Assembly: GCF_027942865.1 (NCBI RefSeq)
Contig: NC_134507.1
Span: 33,462,447 to 33,526,446, forward strand
Length of the DNA: 64,000 bases
DNA from: Odontesthes bonariensis
Taxonomy: Eukaryota > Chordata > Actinopteri > Atheriniformes > Atherinopsidae
Reading direction: 5' to 3'
Below are positions 26,262 to 42,652 of this stretch, piece after piece; the first letter of the stretch is position 1, and each line of letters opens with the position of its first letter. The position numbers and the translations under genes are program-made. The notes below the pieces were generated by a model. The model was not told the DNA's origin and made no database searches. It saw only the letters and a list, made by a program, of their open reading frames with translations.

Positions 26262-26512
26262 CCAAATCTAGCCTAGCTAGTGACTGTTGTGAATAGGGCA
26301 GCTGACAACAAGGGAAAGACCATGTGACAGATTGGAAAGACAGCTGACAGGAGGCAAAGACCCCAAAGGTGCTGCCATGGGCTAGCAACCCATGGTAGCA
26401 GTAGCGAGGCCTAGCCGCTTTGTTACAACCAGCATAAGCTACAGAAAGATTAAGGAGAATACCCCTAGAGTCAGCGAGAGCAGGGGCGGAAGATGACTCA
26501 CTGGCAGACTAC

Positions 26513-29500
26513 ATGGCAACTGACATTGGAACGAACATGACTATGAGGTGGATACGCGACTCAGTGAAGGATAGGGGCACGGGCCTATTCTCTAGTGCTA
26601 GAATTGACCAGAATAGTTCTCAGAGGAAAGAGAGCGTAAATAAAAGTGGTAGACTAGAGGGAAGTAAGCTTCAGGTTTGTCCTTGTGGCTGGCAGAAAGT
26701 AACATCAGTTAGAGGCCTTAAAATGCATCAGGGAAGAAAGAGATGTGTGGTAAAAGAAGGGCAGTGTGGCCGCATCGATCAGTACTTTTTAAGAAGTCAA
26801 TCGAGTAAGTCGGATGAAGTCCAGCGGCAGGTAGAAAACCACAGTCCGAAGGATATCAATAACACAGCTATGGAGGTGGATGAGGAGGTTCTAAGAAGGG
26901 ATGTAGCTGATACTGAGGTGAACAGGCCAGTTAGAGAGAGAAATATGGAGCAGAAAGCTAGAGTTAAGTGGCCTAGGGCAAATAGTTACAAAGAATGGGA
27001 GGCAGTCAATAAAGATTTGTCAATAATATTGGGTAGGTTAGGAGGAAATGCAAGCGATAGGCTAGAGAAGATGGGAGATATAATTTATTCCTATGGTGTA
27101 GAGAGATTTGGGGTGCAAGATAGAAAGAGGATTGAAACAGTACATTTAGGTAAGTCAAGACGGCAAAAAGAGATGGAGAAATTGGTTAAGGAAAGAAGAA
27201 ATTTAAGAAAGCAGTGGAAAAAAGCTACAGAAGAAGAGAGGGAGGGAATTAATGTTTTGCAGGAAGAACTGAGAGGCAGGCTAGCAATACTTAGAAGGGC
27301 TGAATGTCTTAGGAAAAAGAGAAAGAAGAAAGAATATGTTAGGACGGCATTTTATAGGGACCCGTTCAAGTTTGTTAAAGGGTTGTTTAACCAGGAAAAG
27401 GGAGGGCAGCTTAAGGCAACAAAGTTAGAGGTGGAAGAGTATCTAAGAAATACATATTCAGATCTTGAGCAGCGTAGAGTAGTAGGCCTTCCACCTGACA
27501 TGCCACCGTTAGGAGAGATAGCTCATAAGATGGATGTTAGACCACCTAGGTGGAAGGAGGTTGAGGAGGTAGTCAGGCGTGCAAAGGCTTCGTCGGCCCC
27601 AGGGCCAAATGGAGTCCCCTACCGGGTTTATAAAAGTGCACCTGATATCCTAAAGTTTTTGTGGAAGCAATTAAGAATAGTTTGGGAGAAACAGGTTATT
27701 CCTAGAGCATGGCGTAGGGCAGGAGGCGTTCTTATTCCAAAGGAGAAGGAGTCCTCGAACCTGAGTCAGTTCCGGATGATCTCTCTCCTAAATGTAGAGG
27801 GGAAGATTTTCTTTAGTTTGGTTGCACAGAGATTAGCTAGTTATTTAGAAAAGAATAGCTTAATAGATACTACTGTGCAAAAGGCAGGAATACCTGGTTT
27901 CGCAGGGTGTTTAGAGCACACTAGCATGATTTGGCATCAGATTCAGACAGCCAAGATTGAGAAAAAAGACTTGCATGTTATATTTCTAGATCTAGCAAAT
28001 GCATTCGGTTCAGTGCCACATAGCCTTATTTGGGAAGCATTTGAGTATTTTAGAGTGCCTGTAGTAGTGGTTAACTTAGTAAGAGCATATTTTCAAGATA
28101 TTAGACTGTGCCTAAGTACAGCAGGTTTCACAACAGGTTGGCAGAGGCTAGAAATAGGCATTATGGCAGGGTGTACAATTTCTCCATTAGCATTTACAAT
28201 GGCCATGGAGATAATTATTAGAGCGTCCAAGTGGGTTGTAGGAGGAGAGAGACGTCAGGATGGCATGCGCCTTACGCCAATTAGAGCATACATGGATGAT
28301 ATGACGTTAGTGACTACAACAGTACCATGTATGAAGAGAATACTTGAGAGACTTGATAAAAATCTAAAGTGGGCTGGGATGAAAATCAAACCTACTAAGT
28401 CTAGAAGTATCTCAATAAGGAGAGGGAAATTAAGTGATAGAAAGTTTGTAATAGATGAAGAAAGCATTCCAATAATAAGGGAAAAGGCAGTGAAGAGTTT
28501 AGGCAGGTGGTACCAGGCAGACATGAATGATGGAAAGCAGTCAGTGCAGTTTCGTGAAGATGTTATTGAGGGACTGGATAGAATAGATAAATCAGAACTT
28601 CCAGGAAAGTTGAAGCTGTGGTGTCTGCAGTTTGGATTGTTTCCTAGGTTGATGTGGCCACTGTCCGTGTATGAGATTACATTATCTGTTGTGGAAAAAA
28701 TGGAAAGATTAGTTAGCTTTTATATTAGGAAGTGGCTAGGTGTTCCTAGATGTTTAAGTACTGTGGCACTGTATGGGAAAGGCATACTCCAGCTCCCAGT
28801 GTCTAGTCTAGTAGAGGAGTTTAAATGTACTAAAGTTAGGACAGAGCTCCTGTTAGCTGGGAGTAAAGATGTGGTAGTTAGTAAGGTGGTTCCAAACCCA
28901 ACCAAGGGGAGGAAGTGGAAACCAAGAATGGCAGCTCAGGAGGCAGAAGCAACTCTTAGACATACAGAGATTGTGGGCAATGTGCAAATAGGCCGGGGAG
29001 GCTTGGGGCTTGGCCCAGGCAAACTAGTGTGGAGTAGAGCAGGTCCTAAGGAGAAGAGAAAGCTAGTTGTTGAGCAGATTCGTAGACAGGAGGAAATGTT
29101 AAGGGGTGCAAAGGCAGTGGCTCAGGCTAAGCAGGGACGGTGGGTGAACTGGGAAGGTGTAGAAAAGAAAAAGCTTAGTTGGAAAGAACTGTGGAGTATG
29201 GAGGAAAGGAGTATTAGATTTTTGATAGGGGCAACATATGATGTATTGCCTACTCCCCAGAACCTAAAACTCTGGGTAAATGGAGACCCGTTATGTTCGT
29301 TATGTTCAGGTACTGCAACTCTAAAGCATATTTTGTCAGGTTGTAAGGTTAGTCTGTCACAAGGCCGGTATACATGGCGACATGACCAAGTATTAAGAAG
29401 TTTAGCTGCAGGTATTGAAGATAAACGAAGGCAGGTAAACTTAGGAGGGTCCAAGGCACAGAGAGTTGCAATTCAGTTTGTTCAACAGGGGGAGAAAGTT

Positions 29501-29965
29501 AAAAAGACGATAAGGAGGCACGGCAGCTTGGAGGATGCTTGTGATTGGGAGATGCAGGCAGATTTAGGAAATAAGCTTGTTGTTCCCCAGGAAATAGCCT
29601 CTACAAACTTAAGGCCTGATATAGTCTTGTGGTCTAGGAGTAGAATGAGAGTCTATTTCATAGAGCTGACTGTTCCTTGGGAGGAATTGGTAGAGGAAGC
29701 ATATGAAAGGAAAAAGCTTAGATATGTGGAGTTGGGGGCAGAAGCAGAGCAGCGAGGATGGAAGGTTAGAATTTGTCCAGTGGAAGTAGGATGTAGAGGA
29801 TTTGTTGCAAAGTCTGTTGTCTCATTGTTGAGGGAGCTGGGTGTAACTGGACAGAGTGTGAGAAAAATAGTGCAGGAGGTTTCAGATAAAGCATTACAAT
29901 CCAGTCAGTGGATTTGGATAAGAAGAAGCAATAGCAGCTGGGGGCCCAGCAGGGGGAGCACTTAG
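26513..29965 (+). CDS. LINE polyprotein: zinc finger, reverse transcriptase, CCHC, REL endonuclease
   Basis: 1150 codons, uninterrupted, beginning at ATG 26513. The protein would nick target DNA and reverse-transcribe its own RNA there. Domains: Cys/His finger CPCGWQKVTSVRGLKMHQG...C at residues about 57-80; basic Lys/Arg-rich linker 210-290; RT with SSAPGPNGVPYRVYK (about 362), RMISLLNVEGKIF, motif A FLDLANAFGSVPH (about 489-501), motif B MAGCTISPLAF, catalytic YMDD (about 593-596), and a thumb region SLGRWYQADM; C-x2-C-x7-H-x4-C (CSLCSGTATLKHILSGC) at about 927-943; PD-(D/E)xK-like nuclease with RPDIVL (about 1033) and FIELTVPWEE (about 1049). This order (N-terminal finger, central RT, C-terminal CCHC plus nuclease) is that of R2/R4/NeSL-type elements, not APE-type LINEs such as the L2 copies nearby. 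All visible key residues are present. Confidence 0.93.
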   Translation: MATDIGTNMTMRWIRDSVKDRGTGLFSSARIDQNSSQRKESVNKSGRLEGSKLQVCPCGWQKVTSVRGLKMHQGRKRCVVKEGQCGRIDQYFLRSQSSKSDEVQRQVENHSPKDINNTAMEVDEEVLRRDVADTEVNRPVRERNMEQKARVKWPRANSYKEWEAVNKDLSIILGRLGGNASDRLEKMGDIIYSYGVERFGVQDRKRIETVHLGKSRRQKEMEKLVKERRNLRKQWKKATEEEREGINVLQEELRGRLAILRRAECLRKKRKKKEYVRTAFYRDPFKFVKGLFNQEKGGQLKATKLEVEEYLRNTYSDLEQRRVVGLPPDMPPLGEIAHKMDVRPPRWKEVEEVVRRAKASSAPGPNGVPYRVYKSAPDILKFLWKQLRIVWEKQVIPRAWRRAGGVLIPKEKESSNLSQFRMISLLNVEGKIFFSLVAQRLASYLEKNSLIDTTVQKAGIPGFAGCLEHTSMIWHQIQTAKIEKKDLHVIFLDLANAFGSVPHSLIWEAFEYFRVPVVVVNLVRAYFQDIRLCLSTAGFTTGWQRLEIGIMAGCTISPLAFTMAMEIIIRASKWVVGGERRQDGMRLTPIRAYMDDMTLVTTTVPCMKRILERLDKNLKWAGMKIKPTKSRSISIRRGKLSDRKFVIDEESIPIIREKAVKSLGRWYQADMNDGKQSVQFREDVIEGLDRIDKSELPGKLKLWCLQFGLFPRLMWPLSVYEITLSVVEKMERLVSFYIRKWLGVPRCLSTVALYGKGILQLPVSSLVEEFKCTKVRTELLLAGSKDVVVSKVVPNPTKGRKWKPRMAAQEAEATLRHTEIVGNVQIGRGGLGLGPGKLVWSRAGPKEKRKLVVEQIRRQEEMLRGAKAVAQAKQGRWVNWEGVEKKKLSWKELWSMEERSIRFLIGATYDVLPTPQNLKLWVNGDPLCSLCSGTATLKHILSGCKVSLSQGRYTWRHDQVLRSLAAGIEDKRRQVNLGGSKAQRVAIQFVQQGEKVKKTIRRHGSLEDACDWEMQADLGNKLVVPQEIASTNLRPDIVLWSRSRMRVYFIELTVPWEELVEEAYERKKLRYVELGAEAEQRGWKVRICPVEVGCRGFVAKSVVSLLRELGVTGQSVRKIVQEVSDKALQSSQWIWIRRSNSSWGPSRGST

Positions 29966-30872: not shown

Positions 30873-31935
30873 GGTTATGTATATAAGTTTATGCCGGTTG
30901 ATGTAAATGCCGGTTGATGTGTATGCCCTACTTGTTTTGATTTTGTTATGTGTTGTATAGTTATTAGTGAATACATCAGTAAATGAATACCTGAATGGTC
31001 CTTATCATTGATAATTAGAATTATTTCCATTCATTAATAAAAAATGACAACATGAAAAGGTAACCTTATCATCCACTTGCACAATAGTTGTTTGTACTAC
31101 AAATAAAGCACTGTTTGGAATCAATTTAGCCCACGTTACAAACACGTGGATGGTTATCAATAATTATTGGAATTCCATTAATTGATCAAAATGACAACAT
31201 GAAAGGTCACTTGCATAATTGTGCTTCGTGCTGTAAATAAAGCACTATTTCGAATTTATTTGGCTCAATTCAGAAATACATGAATGAGCATTATCGTTGA
31301 TAATTATTATTTTATGTTCACTTTAAAATGATATTTTGCGAGATTCCTTTCTGTAGGTTAGATTTGACAGCACCTGGCAGGTTGTCATTTTTCCAGTTTG
31401 TTGTCGTAAATCGGCAACGTGATTGGTCCAGCACGGTCATGTGGTGTCTTGTGACATCAAAATCGTCATTCAGCCCTGCGGAAAATATTTCTTCAGAAAA
31501 CGTCTCGGTTTAAAAAAAGTACAGGATTCTGTGACGCGAAACTTTTTTTATATGTGCAAAATAACTTTGTCATTTTTATCAGCGAACGGGCATGTAGTTC
31601 GGAGAGCACGGAGCGAGCCTAAACGAAAACGGGGTTCACCTTTACGGCCTAATATAAAGGTTCTAATACTTGGCACCAAACCTGGAACCCCAACTCTAGT
31701 TTGATGGATTTGAACATGTGTGTTTGATGGATGTAGGACTTAGTTTGTTTCCATAGAAATTATCTCTTCTTCTGTTACTTTACAAAACAAGACGGAGGGT
31801 TTGTGATCTTTGCTTATTATTTATGTTCATATACTGTCCTCAGTGTATTTTAAATCTATTTATTAGTTTTAGTTCCAGATATTTAGTTTAAATGGTTTAG
31901 ATTAAATTCAACATGGGACATTTTGAGGTGATCAC
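30873..31935. other. A+T-rich spacer upstream of the NLR gene
   Basis: No gene seen. Short A+T-rich segments with CAAATAAAGCACTGTTT and GTAAATAAAGCACTATTT repeat at about 31101 and 31233, with similar flanks (AATTATTGGAATT, TTGATAATTA), so this is an old diverged duplication. The missing first exon of the NLR gene could lie here or further left, but I could not recognise it. Confidence 0.4.
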
Positions 31936-32455
31936 TGTGATGGAGTGACCATCACTAGGGTTGTGGGTGTGTTCTGATTGTCATGCCAATGAGCCTGGCT
32001 CTTTGGTGTAGTGGTCAGAGCCCCAGTTTTGTACCCAGAAGGCCAGGGTTCGAGTCCTGGCGGGGCAACTCTACTCCCCTTCGCTACAAATGGTGTCAGA
32101 AGTGGGATGGCTACCGTGAGGCCATCGGAAGCATACCCATTGTGTGTAAGTTGTAATTCCATGTGAGGGACCCCCAGGATTGGTGACCCCGGTGCGAGGG
32201 ACCCCAGTGATGGGTGAAGCATTGATGATGGGGCACACTGGATGGGAGAAGCATGATGGGCCTCTGCGTGAGGGACACCATGAGTGTGTGAAGCGCACCG
32301 GTGCGCTTCCCGAAGGGGAAGGCAGTGTGATGGAGTGACCATCACTAGGATTCTGTCATGCCAATGAGCCTGGCTCTTTGGTGTAGTGGTCAGTTTAGTA
32401 CCCAGAAGGCCAGGGTTCGAGTCCTGGCGGCGCAACTCTACTCCCCTTTGCTACA
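31936..32455 (+). mobile_element. Miniature LTR retrotransposon (TRIM-like) with tRNA-like LTRs
   Basis: Two direct repeats starting TG and ending CA: 31936-32088 (153 bp) and 32326-32455 (130 bp), flanked by a 5-bp duplication ATCAC (31931-31935 and 32456-32460). Two bases after the left LTR is TGGTGTCAGAAGTGGGA (32091-32107), complementary to the 3' end of a tRNA-Leu including CCA. Directly before the right LTR is a purine stretch GAAGGGGAAGGCAG. The 237-bp interior has no open frame. Each LTR contains a tRNA-like unit. This is an LTR retroelement in organisation but far too short to be autonomous, so it must be moved by a helper. Confidence 0.9.
31997..32068 (+). ncRNA. tRNA-like unit inside the 5' LTR (Pol III box A and B)
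   Basis: Reads GGCTCTTTGGTGTAGTGGTC..., with a box A-like TTTGGTGTAGTGGTCAGAG and a canonical box B GGTTCGAGTCC (32048-32058) set in a paired arm CCAGG/CCTGG. Spacing matches a tRNA gene. The matching unit in the 3' LTR is at about 32366-32432 but has lost 8 bases between the boxes. The cloverleaf is imperfect (the T-loop is one base long), so I call it tRNA-like and not a tRNA gene. Confidence 0.7.
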
Positions 32456-32573
32456 ATCACCTTCTGAGTTCTAAACAGGATTGGGTATTTGCTTGTTCAG
32501 ATATATGAAGTAAACGTTCCTCCTGACTGTGTTTTGGACGCAGTGCAGATTATAATCTATGTTTTTTAATCAG

Positions 32574-35500
32574 GAGGAAGCTGGAGAGTGCTGAACCTAG
32601 CGGGGTCTCCATGAAGAATCCTCCCATATCTGACAGATATGGATACCAACAGGTAGCACAGAGGTAAGAAAGATTATTAAAATCATAACAAAGTGCTGCA
32701 TGAGATTAATTTAGAGAACTTTCCCCCAAAAGCTCGTTATATGTAAAACCTTCACAACTAAACACATCTGTGCTCACTACAGTTAGTCTTATACAATCAG
32801 GCACTGACCAGCTCCACTCCAGGGCCTTTGTTCATGTGTTCTTCAACTGGAAGGAAGATTGATCACTGGTGAGCCTTAAATATGTTGCTGTTAAACAAAG
32901 GCTTGTTCTGCCTCCCAGTCAGTCCAGAAAATTGTAAAAGATTTGCATCCTTCAGCATGTTGTCAAAACTCTGAGGTACATATCCTGTCAACAAAGACAG
33001 ACAGATCAAATCCAATATGGAAGTGTTGGTTAAAGCTGCCGTCGGCAGGTTTTCAAAATTCCGAGTCTAAAGTCGGAAAATTTGAACTGATACAACATTC
33101 AGGTCCCTCCCCCAACCTCTACCAAGCTCCGAATCGCCCCCCAAACCCCTACCCCTCTGTGGACGAGGTTGTGCACGTGAGTTCACACCAGTGTGCGCGC
33201 ACACAAGCTGGGGCAGACTCACGCTCAGCATGGTTGGTGACTGTTCTGCTCAGATAATAGATAAATAATAAACCTAACGTGATTGGTTAAAAACAGCCGG
33301 GAGTGCTCAATTTTTGCAAGCATGATTACAGGCTTCAGAGGGAGCTACAGAATTCGGGATTTTTCCTAAACAGCCTATTTAATATTCTACTACCAGAATC
33401 CCATGACAGTTCAAGCTAAAGGGAAATCGTGAACAGTCTTGTTGGGATTGGGTCTAAAATTCAAGTTGATGGTTTAGAAGAAGCTATTGTTGTTGTTAGC
33501 AGACCTAACAACAAGGGGAACTCAGAACAAACTGGTTGGGATTTTATACCTCATCTGGCCGGGGGACACCTCCAGGATCCCCAGGAGGAGCTGGAGAGAG
33601 TGGTTGGAGAGAGGGATGAATGGGTTTTACTGCTGGACCTGTTGTGTCCATCACATGTAAGATATGACAGCATAGTGGGTGTACCCACAGCGACTGTGCT
33701 CTTCTACCATATCAGAATATTGTCTAATGCATTAAAATATGGTTATATTAACAATGGTCCTGTGGAATTGTCTATAGCTGGTGACATATTCAAGCTCTGT
33801 TTAAAACAAAATAAGAAAGTCATGCACATGTTGAATGACTGATAACAACTTGTGAGAATATCTTGCTTGTCCGCAGCATTAAAAAGGTCAATAAAAGATG
33901 GAGGAACTTAATTAGTCAGGCTGATAAACCAACACAATAAAATGGAAGCTACTGAAGCTCCACTGAAATACAAACATAAATTATATTTCACTCTGTTAAT
34001 AGTTGTGAGAACAATCTTTGATAGAGTTGTAATCAACAGTCTAACTAATAGGACCTTCACCTTGTGTTTGTCTCTGTGTGGACAAACAGAATGTGAGCTC
34101 ATTCTTCATGATTCCTCCACAGAGTGGACCAGCAGAGCTCACAGGGTCCCAGTGGTCAGTCTGCCCAGCAGCATCAAACACAGCTGGACTCCATATTTAT
34201 GGTCTGTACATGTACAACAACTACTTTTCCATCTCACCTCCATGCTGCACTGTGTAGACCAGTGGGTTGTCAGTGTGTCCAACATGGATCTGATGTTTGG
34301 CTCCATGGTTTCAGTCTGATTGGCTCATTCATATAGTTGTCTGTTCCAGCTGCTGGAGGACAACATGCTCACTTTTGTGAAGGAGGAGCTGAAGAAGATC
34401 CAGAAGGTTCTGAGTCCAGATTACCCAGAATGCTTAGAGAGTCAGAGGGAGGGTGAGGATGAAGAGCAGAGGAGCAGCAGAGAGGCATTAGTGAAGATCA
34501 CAGTTCACCTCCTGAGGAGAATGAAGCAGGAGGAGCTGGCTGACCGTCTGCAGAGCAGTAAGAGGATTCCTCTAAAGATTTAACCTGCTGGATAAATGAC
34601 ACATTTACTGATGTCTCAGCACACAGAACAGCAGATATTCAGATACTCATTCTGTACAGGGTTTAAATGTCTGTTTGCAGATGTTATGTCTTGTCTTCAT
34701 TCAGATCTTTGTGAACGTAAACTTAAATGTGCTCTGAAGAAGAAGTTCCAGTGTGTGTTTGAGGGGATTGCTAAAGCAGGAAAGCCAACCCTTCTGAATC
34801 AGATCTACACAGAGCTCCACATCACAGAGGGAGGGACTGGAGAGGTCTGTGATGAACATGAGGTCAGACAGATTGAAGCAGCATCCAGGAAAGCAGGCAG
34901 AGCAGAAACATCCATCAGACAAGAAGACATCTTTAAAGTCCCACCAGGAAGAGATGAACCAATGAGAACAGTGATGACAAAGGGAGTGGCTGGCATTGGG
35001 AAAACAGTCTTAACACAGAAGTTCACTCTGGACTGGGCTGAAGGCAAAGCCAACCAGGACATCCAGCTCATGTTTCCATTCACTTTCAGAGAGCTGAATG
35101 TGCTGAAAGAGAGAAAGTTCAGCTTGGTGGAACTTGTTCATCACTTCTTTACTGAGACCAAAGCAGCAGGAATCTGCAGCTTTGAAGAGTTCCAGGTTGT
35201 GTTCATCTTCGACGGTCTGGATGAGTGTCGACTTCCTCTGGACTTCCACAGCAAAGAGCCCCTGACTGATGCTACAGAGCCCACCTCAGTGGATGTGCTG
35301 CTGACAAGCCTCATCAGGGGGAAGCTGCTTCCCTCTGCTCGTCTCTGGATAACCACACGACCTGCAGCAGCCAATCAGATCCCTTCTGACTGTGTTGGCA
35401 TGGTGACAGAGGTCAGAGGGTTCACTGACCCACAGAAGGAGGAGTACTTCAGGAAGAGATTCAGAGATGAGGAGCAGGCCAGCAGGATCATCTCCCACAT

Positions 35501-38500
35501 CCAGACATCACGAAGCCTCCACATCATGTGCCACATCCCAGTCTTCTGCTGGATAACTGCTACAGTTCTGGAGGATGTGTTGGAAACCAGACAGGGAGCA
35601 GAGCTGCCCAGCACCCTGACTGAGATGTACATCCACTTCCTGGTGGTTCAGGCCAAAGTGAAGAAGCTCAAGTATGATGGAGGAGCTGAGACAGATCCAC
35701 ACTGGAGTCCAGAGAGCAGGGAGATGATTGAGTCTCTGGGAAAACTGGCTTTTGAGCAGCTGCAGAAAGGAAACCTGATCTTCTATGAATCAGACCTGAC
35801 AGAGTGTGGCATCGATATCTCAGCAGCCTCAGTGTACTCAGGAGTGTTCACACAGATCTTTAAAGAGGAGCAAGGGCTGTACCAGGAGAAGGTGTTCTGC
35901 TTCATCCATCTGAGTGTTCAGGAGTTTCTGGCTGCTCTTCATGTGCATCTGACCTTCATCAACTCTGGAGTCAACCTGATGGGAGAAGATGAACGACCCA
36001 AGAGGCCTTCATTTCTTAAGAAACCAAAACTAATACAGCTCCATCAGAGTGCTGTGAACAAGGCCTTAAAGAGTCCAAATGGACACCTGGACCTGTTCCT
36101 CCGCTTCCTCCTGGGTCTTTCACTGCAGACCAATCAGAGACTCCTACGAGGCCTGCTGACACAGACAGGAAGTAGCTCACAGACCAATCAGAGGCTGCTA
36201 CGAGGCCTGCTGACACAGACAGGAAGTAGCTCACAGACCAATCAGGAAACAGTCGATTACATCAAGAAGAAGATCAGTGAGGATCTGTCTGCAGAGAGAA
36301 GCATTAATCTGTTCCACTGTCTGAATGAACTGAATGATCGTTCTCTGGTGGAGGAGATCCAACGTTACCTGAGTTCAGGAAGTCTCTCCACAGATAAACT
36401 TTTTCCTGCTCAGTGGTCAGCTCTGGTCTTCATCTTACTGTCATCAGGAAAACATCTGGATGAGTTTGACCTGAAGAAATACTCTGCTTCAGAGGAGGCT
36501 CTTCTGAGGCTGCTGCCAGTGGTCAACGCCTCCAACAAAGCCCTGTAAGTTACCATCATTCAAAAACACAGCTATCTTTTTAACAGGAGAAATAAATAAT
36601 GTATTACTTGTCACTTTGTTATTATTTGTTCAGGCTGAGCGGCTGTAAGCTGTCAGAGAGAAGCTTTAAAACTTTGTCTGCAATTCTCATCTCCCCGTCT
36701 TCCAATCTGAAAGAGCTGGACCTGAGTAAGAACGACTGTAGAGATTCAGGAGTGAAGCAGCTGTGCGTTGGATTAAAGAGTCCACGCTGTGAACTGGAAT
36801 CTCTCAGGTTAGGATGCTTTGCGACTGTCTGATTCTACATTATACCAGCTGATGGTGTTATAAAAGATGTAAATAAAGTTTAAATGAGAAAAATATCCAC
36901 ATAGAATAAAATAGAAACACATTAAACCATTTACCTTTCAGCAGCCTGTCAGTAATTGGGCATTTTAGTGTTGTCTTGGTGTCATTTATGGGTTGAGAAA
37001 CATTGTCCAGGCATGCTCATAGCTTAGCTAGCATTTCAGCCTCCTCTGACCATTTCTTCACTCTGTGTGTGTGTCAGCTGGATTAAATGGGTAGCAGAGG
37101 GGGTTTAAAGCCGACTGTTGTTGAGAAGATTGTTGAGTTGGAGGTGGGGTGGGTTAGATGACAGGAGCTGCAGTATGGTTGATCCTACTGGAGAAGGGGC
37201 ATGTGACTGATCAAACGTGCTGAATAAATGTTTAAATAATAGCAAATGTTTGGACCATATGTTTACCATTCTCTGATTATGATTGTTTATGCAGACTGAG
37301 TGACTGTAACCTCTCAGAGAGAAGCTGTGAAGCTCTGTCCTCAGTTCTCAGCTCCCAGTTCTCCAGTCTGGCAGAACTGGACCTGAGTAACAATGACCTG
37401 CAGGATTCAGGAGTGAAGCAGCTGTCTGTTGGACTAAAGAGTACACGTTGTAAACTGGAATCTCTCAGGTCAGAATTCATCATCAAATTGTACAACTTAC
37501 GAATACTGTAATTTTCATGGTCCTGGGAACTATGTTGTCAGGGGTGTTAGCCCTGGTAGAGCCTCCCATGAGAAATTGGTCCCAGGGGAGGGGTTAGACT
37601 AAGTGATTCAAAGACCTCGATGGAGTGGCACCAGAGGAAAACTTGTGGCCGAGCCTTGGCTCCTGGGATTCGGTCGGGCTTAGTCCAAAGAAGAATCAGG
37701 AAGCCACCTCCACGTGGACCTACCACTCACAGGGAGGAAATTTGAGGTAAGGTGCAATTTGATCTGGGCAGCAGGCGAAGGCGGGGAACTGGGTGTGCCA
37801 ATCCCCAGCAAACTGGCTCTAGGGATGTAGAATGTCACCTCATTGGCAGCAAAAGAGCTTGAGCTGGTGTGTGAGATGGAGCACCTCCACACAGAGCTTT
37901 GGCTCTGGAACCAAACCCCTGCAGAAGGTCTGGACTCTCTAATAGTCTGGAATTCCCCATGGAGAGAGGCATCAGGCGGCTGTGGGGATACTCACACGCC
38001 ACCGGCTGAACGCCTATACGCTGGAGTCCCCCCCGGTGAGTGAGAGGGTCGCCTCACTGCGGCTCCAAGACTTTAATCCCCATGTTGGCAATGACATGGC
38101 ATTAGTTGGAGAGATGTGATTGGGAGGAACGGCCTCCCTGATCTGAACCCCAGTTGTGTCTTGTTTTTGGACTGTGCGAGCCATGGATTGTCCATCACAA
38201 ACAGTAACTCTTCAGTAACTCTAAACTCCTTTCAATTAATCTTCTTCCATGAATCTAGTGGCAACTGAATAAGTTGGTGTCCTGTACTGGTTCCACTGAG
38301 AGGGGCCTGATAACTGAAGGCTCTGCCTCTGATTCTACTTTTAGAGACTCTGAGAGCAAAGTGCTCTGTTGGAAAAATATCCAAATAGATCTTTAAGATG
38401 TGATGGAATTCTTCTCCGTAGTCTCTCCAAATTATTTCCACATCCGAGTTTTAGCTTCAGCAACCACCAATGCTGCAGCCCTTTTAGCCACTCAGTACCC

Positions 38501-41500
38501 CCAGGACAACCAAGCCCGAAAGACTCCCTTCTTCAGCTTGATGGGTGCCCTCAACACTTGCATCCACAGGTCTTCCGGTTACAGCCACAACAGGCACCAA
38601 CAGCCTTAAGGCCATAGCTCTTGGAAGCTGCATCTGCAATGTAGGTCCTGAACATGCACCATTCTGATTCCATGTCTCAAACCTCTGAATTAACTTTAAC
38701 TGTTACCGTTCCATTGAGGTCTTTGAATCGCCCTTCGTCTGATCCCTCCCCTGAGACTAATTTGCCATAGGAGACCCTACGAAGGTTAGAAAGGATGGGG
38801 TGTACTGTTTAATTTTGTGCAAATATCAAATATATATTGAACCAGGGCTCTGTCTGTCACTTTAACAGCCATATCTGAAATATTCATGAGGAACATGAAT
38901 ATAAAAGTGACCCATGTGTGAATGGTTTAACACTGTCACTTTAACAGATTGATGAAGCTTTTAATGCTGTGTATCTCATGTGAAAACAGCTTCAGAGTTT
39001 CAGCCATGTATGTTGTTCTGTGTGTCTGCAGCATGTCAGGCTGTCTGATCACAGAGGAAGGCTGTGCCTCTCTGGCCTCAGCTGTGACCTCCAACCCCTC
39101 CCATCTAAGAGATCTGGACCTGAGCTACAACCATCCAGGAGACTCAGGAGTGAAGCTGCTGACAGCTGCAATGAATGATCCACAAAAACCCAAGTATGGA
39201 GAGGCCTGCTGCAGCATATTGTTATGTTACTTACTACTAAAACTGTTAACATTAATTTCCCCTGTAAATTGTCCTGAGGTGCCTTTTGTTGAGGATTTGT
39301 ATGATTCTTAAAGTATTTATATTACTTACTTGAGGATGGATGTGTACAATTACATAACCAAGGTACTCCACCTCAGTCTTGGCGATGTGACATTTGTGTG
39401 GATTGATGACTAATCCAAAAATTTGGATCTATTGAGAGACATCAGAGACATTATTAACTTATGACTGCATATTTGTTCTAATCCCACTTAAATGTTTAGA
39501 TAAAAACTATTATAAAATGCCAACACAAGCATACCTGGGATAGTAAATATGGCAAAGTTACAGTGGCAGTGCTAAACTAAAACAACATGAGCACATGTAA
39601 AACAAAGGTTAATGGATAAGATGTGTCAGGGAAAAGTGGTGAGTAGATGAGATCTCACACACTTTGTTACATTCAGTCAAGATTAAATTAAAAGAGTAAT
39701 TTTCAACTGTGCTCCATCCCAGTGGACGTGTCAAGAAAATAGTCACTGAATTATGCTGAACAAGAAAATACTTGATCAATTGAAGCACTGACGGTCCAGC
39801 TGCTGTTTCCACAACCTGCACATCTGTACTGGATCTCTGAGTTTCAAAATAATGCATCAATGAATAAAATGTAGATCTTTTATGATGACTATGTGCATTA
39901 CACTTTTCAAACTTATTAGAAAAAACTTTTGAATATTTCAGAAATAGCCAAGATTTAGGCTTTATGAAACCAACTCTGTTTATAATTCAAAAATAGAGAG
40001 AAAAAAACATCTCCTGCTGAAAAAAATGCTAATATAAAATAAAAAACTAGCCTCCTAGCGATTTACAGTCGTCCAGGATAGGTTACGGAGAGCAACAGAG
40101 AGCCCTCTCTGCCGTCGGAAATCCTCCCGGAGACGCTCTCCGTTGCTTTCGTGCGTCAGCCAAAATTCCTAACTATCCATCAAGGAGACGGAGACTCGCA
40201 GAGACCGCAAGGGTTGTGATTGGTCGGCTAACAACATAATTTCCTTCATTTTACTGTGTGCCGGTCAACATTTGGTCAAAATTATTTGCATTTCAATATC
40301 AATAAGCTCCAACTCCAACAAAAGTCTTTCTCTCTCGGTCGCCATCGTTCACTGTGAGCAGTGGAACGGATCCGGAAGGTAAACAATCAATCACTTTCAC
40401 GATAGACGTCACGAGATTAGGTCGTCTTGCGTAGCGACGCCTACTGATCGGGAGGTGAATTGCCTTGCGTATCCGACATCCCGATGGAGAACTTCGAAAG
40501 GTTTAATAGTCTCTGCGTGACCATGGAGTCGAATTGGCCGAAAGCTACGGAGTAGCATACCGAGGCCTTTACATTTACACCATAACACCTTAATAACACT
40601 TTTCCATAGTAGAATGAGTGTTTATGTTAGCCTTGAAGGCTAGCATAGAGTGTGTAGTTAATTACTACTTACTCTAACTTTTAATGTCTCTTTTCTTTTT
40701 CGGTGACATTTTCTATTTTTAAAGCAGAAACATGAGCAAAAATTTTGAGACCAAACAAAATATTAATGTGAGGATTTACTTTCATGATTTTGTGGCATCA
40801 AGCCTGTTTGCAACAGCCAGTCTGATATTTTACCGTCAATCCAGCGTCTTACAGCAACTCTGCCACACAGCACGTGTCCTTGTTGGGAGCGGTGACGAGA
40901 GGGACTGACCTTTAGCCAATGAAATTTTAGGCAGCATATCTAACCTTTGTTGCCATGCAAGTTACACTGAACATTGGGACGAGAGGGCCCGTTGGAAAAG
41001 TAGTTTTTTATAAATGCTTAATACTACGAATGACTTTGTGAAAAATATTATATTTAATGCATTATGTAAAAAAATATGTTATATTAGAATATTATTTAAA
41101 ATATTGGTAGGGACAACTCTGTCTTCCCAAAACTTTTGTTGTGACTTGTCCCTATGGTCCCTTTGCAAACTTATGCCCATGGTGTGTGTGAGAGCCATGT
41201 AATTAGACTGTGCTGCTCTGCCCCCCTTTCAGGGTGGAGCCTGCTGGAGAACGATGGCTGACACCAGGTCTGAGGAAGTGTAAGTGTGTTCTTAATCTGA
41301 TTCATGACATCCAACCATCTTCACACTGTCACATCACTCATTGATCAAAGTGAACAGATGATGGATCAGTAACTGCAGCTGGATTGTGTTTGTTCTCTCC
41401 ATCAGATTCCTGTCAACTCACAATCGACACAAACACAGTGAGCAGAGGACTGAAACTGTCTGACAACAACAGGAAGGTGACCCATCTGAAGGAGGTTCAG

Positions 41501-41962
41501 TCATATCCTGATCATCCAGACAGATTTGACTGGTGGCCTCAGCTGCTGTGTAGCAATGGTCTGACTGGTCGCTGTTACTGGGAGGTCGAGTGGAGAGGAG
41601 CCGTTTATATATCAGTGAGTTACAGAGGAATCAGAAAGAAAAGAGACAGTGATAACTGTGTGTTTGGATGGAATGATCAGTCCTGGAGTCTGAGCTGCTC
41701 TGATGGAGGTTACTCCGTCTGTCACAATAAGAAAGAAACGATCATCTCCTCCTCCTCCTCCTCCTCCTCCTCCACCTGCTCCTCCGTCTCTAACAGAGCA
41801 GCAGTGTATGTTGACCGTCCTGCTGGCACTCTGTCCTTCTACAGAGTCTCCTCTGAGACACTGATCCACCTCCACACCTTCAACACCACATTCACTGAAG
41901 AACCTCTGCATCCCGGATTTGTTGTCTGGTTCAAGCCTTTTTCCTCAGTGTCTCTATGTTGA
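32574..41962 (+). CDS. NLR receptor, FISNA-NACHT-LRR-B30.2 type (fish NLR-C/NLRC3-like)
   Basis: Cytosolic pattern-recognition/inflammasome-type receptor of the family greatly expanded in teleosts. Exons that I can join with matching phases: 32574-32663, 34123-34201, 34350-34557, 34705-36544, 36634-36807, 37295-37468, 39032-39193, 41233-41279, 41406-41962, giving about 1109 residues with no stop. All junctions are GT-AG; exon 39032-39193 uses a weaker donor (AA|GTATGG) chosen because it alone restores the frame into [15 protein letters not shown]. The N-terminal part ([40 protein letters not shown]) is the linker common to these genes. A first exon with the usual start was not found, so the 5' end is open. 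Polyadenylation signal AATAAA at 42237. The gene looks functional although its introns are full of transposon debris. Confidence 0.9.
33030..33420. mobile_element. TTAA-type MITE, truncated copy
   Basis: Starts TTAA-AGCTGCCGTCGGCA and matches, in reverse orientation, the element at 7770-8193 over nearly its whole length. The right terminal repeat is missing: similarity stops after GACAGTTCAAGCTAA at about 33420. Confidence 0.82.
33540..33660 (+). mobile_element. Tx1/L1-like LINE, C-terminal scrap
   Basis: Frame reads [23 protein letters not shown], the characteristic end of a fish LINE protein family (GERDxWVSLLRLL). Only about 40 codons remain. Confidence 0.55.
34705..36544 (+). CDS. NLR exon encoding FISNA, NACHT and the helical region
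   Basis: Central exon, 613 codons. FISNA region: [20 protein letters not shown] and [17 protein letters not shown] (first 70 residues). NACHT ATPase: Walker [15 protein letters not shown] (about 34985-35026), Walker [18 protein letters not shown] (about 35195-35245), sensor-type [14 protein letters not shown] (about 35335-35375). Winged-helix/helical part continues through [16 protein letters not shown] (about 35900). The acceptor TTCATTCAG at 34696-34704 and not an in-frame ATG upstream defines the start. It includes a 54-bp tandem duplication at 36129-36236. Confidence 0.93.
36129..36236 (+). repeat. 54-bp in-frame tandem duplication in the NLR
   Basis: Two 54-bp units (36129-36182, 36183-36236) encode [18 protein letters not shown] twice, followed by a third partial TNQ. 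It lies in the helical linker between NACHT and LRR. The frame is kept, so the protein simply gains 18 residues. Confidence 0.93.
36634..36807 (+). CDS. NLR leucine-rich-repeat exon 1
   Basis: 174-bp symmetrical exon, the standard LRR module of these genes: [14 protein letters not shown]...[16 protein letters not shown]...LESLR. Bounded by TTGTTCAG and CAG|GTTAGG. Confidence 0.9.
37295..37468 (+). CDS. NLR leucine-rich-repeat exon 2
   Basis: 174 bp, same phase: [18 protein letters not shown]...[19 protein letters not shown]...LESLR. Bounded by TTTATGCAG and CAG|GTCAGA. Confidence 0.9.
37540..38220 (+). mobile_element. Tx1/L1-like LINE endonuclease remnant in NLR intron
   Basis: Decayed frames show [20 protein letters not shown], then HVGND (CCCATGTTGGCAATGACATG, about 38079-38098) and NGLPDLNPS...[10 protein letters not shown] (about 38130-38200), the middle of an APE-type endonuclease of the fish Tx1-like family. 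Many stops. Confidence 0.6.
38221..39031. other. Rest of NLR intron
   Basis: Unassigned repeat-like sequence. Around 38440-38600 two frames read [18 protein letters not shown] and [13 protein letters not shown], which look like residues of an old repeat, but I cannot name it. No NLR exon seen. Confidence 0.35.
39032..39193 (+). CDS. NLR leucine-rich-repeat exon 3
   Basis: [18 protein letters not shown]...[19 protein letters not shown], the usual last LRR of this family. It is 162 bp and not 174: the expected LETLR end is replaced by DPQKPK and the donor is AA|GTATGG at 39194. The phase matches the next exon. Confidence 0.78.
39194..41232. other. Long NLR intron (2 kb)
   Basis: No exon seen. 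A G+C-richer block at about 40060-40570, with AGAGACGGAGACTC- and GGAGACGCTCTCCG-like words, contrasts with A+T-rich flanks and is probably an old Harbinger-like MITE, but I could not match terminal repeats. Confidence 0.4.
41233..41279 (+). CDS. NLR short linker exon
   Basis: 47 bp encoding [15 protein letters not shown], the conserved bridge from LRR to PRY-SPRY. Bounded by CCCTTTCAG and AGT|GTAAGT. Confidence 0.88.
41406..41962 (+). CDS. NLR B30.2 (PRY-SPRY) exon
   Basis: Last coding exon, 185 codons. [94 protein letters not shown] (TCC)n run at 41746-41772 makes a nine-serine tract in a variable loop. It ends at TGA 41960-41962. Confidence 0.93.
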
Positions 41963-42529: not shown

Positions 42530-42652
42530 GCTCTTGGAGTTGAACACGCCTGAACATGCCTGATCTTGTCCAATCTCAGAAGCTAAGCAGAGTTGGGCCT
42601 GGTTAGTACTTGGATGGGAGATCGCCTGAGAATACCTGGTGCTGTAAGCCTT
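42530..42652 (+). pseudogene. 5S rRNA pseudogene
   Basis: From AACACGCCTGAAC (42543) to GGTGCTGTAAGCC (42650) the text follows vertebrate 5S rRNA, including the internal control region AGCTAAGCAG-AGTTGGGCCT-GGTTAGTACTTGGATGGGAG. The first 13 or so bases are unrelated to the normal 5' end and there are several transitions (GTCCAATCTC, GAGAATACC). Followed by TTTT. It may be a dispersed 5S copy or the head of a 5S-derived SINE; no SINE body was recognised. Confidence 0.85.

Follow-up and report, generated by a model that had tools for sequence, protein, structure and literature searches.

How an LTR retroelement of only 520 bp, too short for mobility proteins and carrying what looks like a tRNA-type promoter in each of its LTRs, could be transcribed and moved is the question raised by this locus. 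The element occupies positions 31936-32455 of the window (the whole 64-kb stretch of DNA that was analysed), as defined by direct reading and by a repeat search. The window includes a fish NLR gene region, with a FISNA-NACHT NLR exon at 34596-36545 and a PRY/SPRY exon at 41354-41959, both on the plus strand; the fish-specific FISNA-NACHT sequence indicates a teleost. Other features on this strand are a 5S rRNA match (42532-42650; 61.4 bits), the sole one in the window, and a stop-to-stop frame of 1175 aa (26438-29965) with a reverse transcriptase domain (RVT_1), apparently the long open frame of a non-LTR retrotransposon.

The element lies on the plus strand between two copies of the target-site duplication ATCAC (31931..31935 and 32456..32460). 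Its 5' LTR is 153 bp long (31936..32088, TGTGATGG...GCTACA) and its 3' LTR, defined by the repeat search and by LTR alignment, 130 bp (32326..32455); each starts with TG and ends with CA, and a perfect inverted repeat, GTGATGG-AGTGA-CCATCAC, is found at the LTR start (31937..31955). The difference in length corresponds to two deletions in the 3' LTR (23 alignment columns), a form that is unique to this LTR among the 33 that were aligned; the 3' LTR of another copy, L007, has a different deletion which overlaps part of the same stretch. The internal region of 237 bp (32089..32325) contains a primer-binding site (PBS), TGGTGTCAGAAGTGGGAT, two bases past the 5' LTR (32091..32108), which we take to be of the tRNA-Leu type (TGGTGTCAGAAGTGGG) by comparison with the 3' sequence of tRNA-Leu. 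At its other end, a polypurine tract (PPT), GAAGGGGAAGGCAG, abuts the 3' LTR (32312..32325) and is immediately preceded by a perfect 20-bp palindrome, GAAGCGCACCGGTGCGCTTC (32290..32309). The marks of an LTR retroelement listed in the original prediction, namely the two LTRs with their TG and CA ends, the ATCAC duplication, the PBS and the PPT, were thus all recovered. The longest frame across the unit is a stop-to-stop frame of 172 aa on the minus strand. With two LTRs, a PBS, a PPT, a total length below 1 kb that leaves no room for mobility proteins and a target-site duplication within the 4-6 bp range, the element has the features of a TRIM. A scan of IMG/VR with the LTR end gave no match.

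The presence of a box A and a box B in each LTR, also put forward in the original prediction, was confirmed as well. In the 5' LTR, box A (TGGTGTAGTGG) is located at 32004..32014 and box B (GGTTCGAGTCC) at 32047..32057, corresponding to LTR positions 69-79 and 112-122; a motif search placed the same two boxes of the 3' LTR at 32379..32389 and 32414..32424. Box starts are 43 bases apart in the 153-bp LTR (LTR positions 69 and 112), a spacing expected for a tRNA having a short D loop. When both strands of the 64-kb window were searched, the A/B pair occurred at two places only, one per LTR, while it was found in none of 60 shuffled windows and, when the LTR itself was shuffled with its dinucleotides preserved, in one of 20,000 trials; this motif test is partly post hoc, as a stricter 12-base box A yielded no A/B pair anywhere, the element included, and the pattern was then widened to the short D-loop form. 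Neither ARAGORN nor the Rfam tRNA model called a tRNA in the window element, and none was called by ARAGORN in 19 other loci of the family or by Rfam in the five loci tested, so that the cloverleaf of a tRNA gene was recognised by neither program. In the 27 LTRs that are exactly 153 bases long, 3-5 of the 7 acceptor positions pair. The term "tRNA-like" is used here on the basis of the boxes and of their spacing, which suggest descent from a tRNA.

Further copies of the element were looked for in the 945.4-Mb assembly, of which 24 chromosome-sized contigs make up 937.5 Mb. At least 26 places match the 520-bp unit, at least 34 the LTR and at least 13 the interior, with the 13 interior matches all falling within TRIM copies or within a chimera located on contig C6 (see below). 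The 26 places comprise nine two-LTR copies including that of the window, 12 solo LTRs, one fragment (L026), two loci with one complete LTR (L010 and L012) and the chimera, which is represented twice (L011 and L025). The PPT GAAGGGGAAGGCAG is identical in six of the nine two-LTR copies, and the 20-bp palindrome is exact in six of the nine and in the chimera. Both LTRs are identical to each other in three of these copies (L002, L004 and L008); the LTR pairs of the other six display 4-6 substitutions and some are also gapped.

Target-site duplications were compared in the 21 copies having both outer ends, leaving out L010, L011, L012, L025 and L026 in which an outer end is missing or which are chimeric. 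A perfect 5-bp duplication was found in 14 of them (L007 included) and a match at four of five bases in five (L016, L018, L019, L021 and L024), with L003 having a 4-bp repeat and L017 no duplication. An automatic tally, which scored 21 loci (L011 and L012 not being valid) and left L007, L010 and L023 unscored, returned 12 perfect 5-bp duplications, one perfect 4-bp and no perfect 6-bp duplication. That the two repeats could instead be independent SINE-like insertions, each with its own duplication and with the LTR layout arising by coincidence, may be suggested by the SINE-like box A/box B units that they contain. This is extremely improbable and is refuted by the structure of the family: the repeats of the window share a single outer 5-bp duplication, as does each element, the LTR-interior-LTR layout recurs at nine loci including that of the window with a PBS and a PPT at the junctions, and the 12 solo LTRs have duplications of their own, perfect over 5 bp in six and matching at four of five bases in five. 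The further copies anticipated by the original prediction, with the same layout, TG and CA ends, 5-bp duplications and an invariant box A, therefore do exist elsewhere in the genome.

The view that such an element has no described counterpart in fish does not hold, since Kojima, in 2024, gave the name Helenus (TRIMp3) to TRIMs whose LTRs are tRNA-like, zebrafish and other fish families among them (PMC10886601). As far as the available text of that article goes, vertebrate Helenus families comprise LTR-11_DR in zebrafish, others in Ostariophysi, LTR1_LCh and LTR2_LCh in the coelacanth and families in sturgeon and paddlefish, with tRNA-His, -Leu or -Lys as primers; they were proposed largely from consensus sequences, and animal Gypsy helpers were inferred from primer-site similarity (PMC10886601). 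Set beside these published families by description, the present family fits the Helenus definition: it is a short TRIM with a PBS and a PPT between its LTRs and with a box A and a box B at tRNA spacing inside both of them, and its PBS, taken above to be of the tRNA-Leu type, falls within the vertebrate primer range (PMC10886601). It differs by its 5-bp duplications, those of animal Helenus being given as 4 bp, which is not a defining trait, by its copy number, in the tens versus 5575 LTRs for LTR-11_DR (PMC10886601), and by the occurrence in the present genome of a chimera with a probable helper. Two other TRIMs described in the same source can also be compared (PMC10886601). Cassandra, in plants, also has the promoter of a small-RNA gene within its LTR, but this is that of the 5S rRNA, in another host and another lineage, and Pol III transcripts have been reported for Cassandra whereas the present TRIM is known from its sequence. 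Ajax, in nemerteans, has 5-bp duplications and a tRNA-Leu primer as found here, but its unit is a partial promoter derived from 5S rather than from a tRNA. Among the matches listed in a search of titles and abstract starts of open-licence PMC articles, no other vertebrate tRNA-type LTR and no Helenus-helper chimera were found.

The sequence of the LTRs bears on which polymerase may transcribe the element. All LTRs that reach 100 bases, 33 in number, were aligned, remnants of 25 and 67 bases in L010 and L026 being left out. Box A is invariant (0/363 minority calls) and LTR positions 1-24 nearly so (2/792), as compared to 104/4966 minority calls over the whole LTR; box B has 11/360, mostly CpG-type changes. 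Box A and the terminus thus appear conserved and box B no more so than the rest of the LTR, in a comparison that is weak because the aligned copies are closely related. Neither AATAAA nor ATTAAA occurs in any of the 33 LTRs. Runs of four T are found in two of them, the 5' LTR of the window and the LTR of L017, and the interiors of the nine two-LTR copies contain neither such a run nor AATAAA. In the window, the TTTT lies between box A and box B of the 5' LTR (32027..32030) and represents a putative Pol III terminator, which is likely to cut the transcripts short and probably makes this particular copy a poor template. For the family, Pol III transcription is plausible, given the invariant box A and the absence of AATAAA and ATTAAA from the aligned LTRs. 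From a start near box A of the 5' LTR, Pol III would continue across the interior as far as the 3' LTR; as the TRIM has no evident stop signal for this polymerase, the RNA would terminate at a weak one or in the DNA beyond the element. Such a read-through RNA would be compatible with LTR-type copying because strong-stop DNA needs only a matching stretch of the 3' LTR.

Alternatively, the TRIM could be transcribed by RNA polymerase II (Pol II), as in ordinary LTR elements, in which case the tRNA-like unit would be an inactive leftover from the capture of a SINE or tRNA. The changes tolerated in box B, including in L004 whose LTR pair is identical, and a unit with no recognised tRNA fold and an acceptor pairing of 3-5 of 7 would fit with this situation, which is nevertheless unlikely, although it is the one to be kept in mind most among the alternatives: none of the 33 aligned TRIM LTRs has an AATAAA or ATTAAA motif, whereas the helper-type LTR of the chimera carries both an AATAAA and a TATA-like match, and box A does not vary, with the reservation made above for copies so closely related.

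How the TRIM is mobilised is best addressed through the chimera, which constitutes the new element of this study in that it joins a TRIM to the LTR of its probable helper family. It occurs as a single copy on the minus strand of C6 (4023315 to 4018379) and reads, in order, GGGCG, a 5' LTR (TGTGATGGCAAGCC...CCTGCACA), TT, the PBS followed by the TRIM interior, the TRIM 3' LTR and again GGGCG. Its 5' LTR is complete, with 674 bp, belongs to a Gypsy family and is unlike that of the TRIM, the junction between the two being at the primer site. A nested insert of 3.87 kb, which is flanked by CCCCCAGG and has inverted ends, interrupts the interior. That this locus could be an autonomous element with a TRIM interior was considered and rejected, since the 3.87-kb gap corresponds to the nested insert; of the 11 coding frames listed near the locus, the five that were searched gave no family above the cut-off. 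The chimera would be the expected product of an intermolecular plus-strand transfer via the shared primer site, and, inserted inside one matching 5-bp duplication, it is the strongest evidence for a helper. A DNA-level event, in which ectopic recombination between a helper and a TRIM took place at the PBS, would be silent on co-packaging and could have made use of the 18-21 bp that the TRIM and Gypsy elements have in common at the primer site; it is rather improbable given that GGGCG occurs on both outer flanks, whereas the flanks left by two separate insertions would match by chance about once in 1000 (4^5).

The family to which the chimera 5' LTR belongs is dispersed, at least 42 places being matched by it; of the 71 candidates, 40 were scored. 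Two of the matching places are the LTRs of a full-length Gypsy element (L086, C27:7847400-7853000), identical to each other over 425 bp and flanked by the target duplication GTTAA. This element corresponds to the full-length LTR element with the same PBS and ends that the original prediction proposed to look for: its 18-nt PBS is identical to that of the TRIM, the first 8 LTR bases, TGTGATGG, are common to both, and its purine tract, GAAGAGGGAAGGTG, is similar to the GAAGGGGAAGGCAG of the TRIM and occupies the same place. Beyond the PBS, these 8 bases, the CA end and the similar PPT, nothing is shared, and no match beyond chance was detected at the DNA level between the TRIM and the L086 coding region. 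When compared to the 674-bp LTR of the chimera, the C27 LTR matches positions 1-22 at 100% and positions 264-674 at 96.6% but lacks the ca. 240 bp in between (positions 23-263); because of this missing middle stretch, the C27 element is regarded as a shorter-LTR relative of the helper involved in the chimera, possibly from another subfamily.

The coding part of L086 has a SCAN domain and a protease in one frame and, in another frame, an integrase and then the reverse transcriptase (RT) and RNase H. An integrase located before the RT is the gene order of Gmr1. SCAN domains are described in Gmr elements (PMC4131045, PMC3406341; available text). By gene order and domains, L086 would thus be a Gmr1-like Ty3/Gypsy element, from which the TRIM differs by its LTR and by the lack of any DNA match to the coding region above chance. 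The C27 family is the probable helper of the TRIM, based on one chimera and on what both have in common, namely the LTR ends, the PBS, a similar purine tract and 5-bp duplications.

A search of the genome for the exact LTR-end/primer-site pattern gave three matches, the C6 chimera, the C27 element and a site on C20 beside the TRIM LTR of L017. At this last locus (C20:35363770-35364701), a TRIM LTR is found in opposite orientation directly after a helper-type LTR, a primer site and ca. 120 bp of interior; this TRIM LTR has no target duplication of its own and the whole is possibly the product of autointegration or of rearrangement.

Another Gypsy element (L085, C25:14644500-14650800), suggested as a helper by a match at the PBS junction, has both LTRs, with 4 differences in 686 matched bases, a SCAN domain and an integrase before the RT. 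It was rejected in this role since its LTR is unrelated and does not share the TRIM LTR ends. Other helpers are nonetheless possible because its 18-nt PBS is identical to that of the TRIM and because the LTR-end/PBS pattern, when two mismatches are allowed, recurs at 24 further sites, one of them being the TRIM copy L002. While these two observations would be in line with a TRIM moved mainly by some other Gypsy family having the same tRNA-Leu site, and not by the C6/C27 family, we judge it an unlikely situation, slightly more so than Pol II transcription: L085 lacks the TGTGATGG start, while the C27 Gypsy shares the start, the type of PPT and the 5-bp length of the duplication, and it is an LTR of the C27 kind that is found in the chimera.

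Taken together, the sequence data favour a Helenus-type TRIM in a teleost, transcribed by Pol III and mobilised by a Gmr1-like Gypsy of the same genome, a reading to which we assign a probability of about 70%. In this scheme, Pol III would start in the 5' LTR just upstream of box A, at about LTR position 57-62, and would transcribe the whole interior and part of the 3' LTR or more. The resulting RNA would be packaged by the Gmr1-like Ty3/Gypsy element, reverse transcription being primed by tRNA-Leu at the PBS and the second strand at the PPT, and the helper integrase would insert the copy upon recognising the shared TGTGATGG...CA ends. In the event that gave rise to the C6 chimera, plus-strand strong-stop DNA made from a helper copy would have been transferred to a TRIM copy, at its PBS, within the same particle.

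These data would have several implications for elements of this type. The 5-bp duplications widen the record for animal Helenus. Within a single genome, identical LTR pairs are found both in TRIM copies and in a full-length member of the probable Gypsy helper family, and a chimera unites the two kinds exactly at the primer site, so that the question of the helper of Pol III-type TRIMs becomes directly testable. Finally, we see an even chance that the Gmr1-like Gypsy packages and copies a Pol III-made TRIM by recognising nothing but the PBS, the PPT and the terminal bases of the LTR, with the C6 locus as the fossil of an intermolecular plus-strand transfer involving a Pol II-made helper in the same particle; if true, this would mean that an element can be mobilised in trans with no LTR homology other than at the tips.
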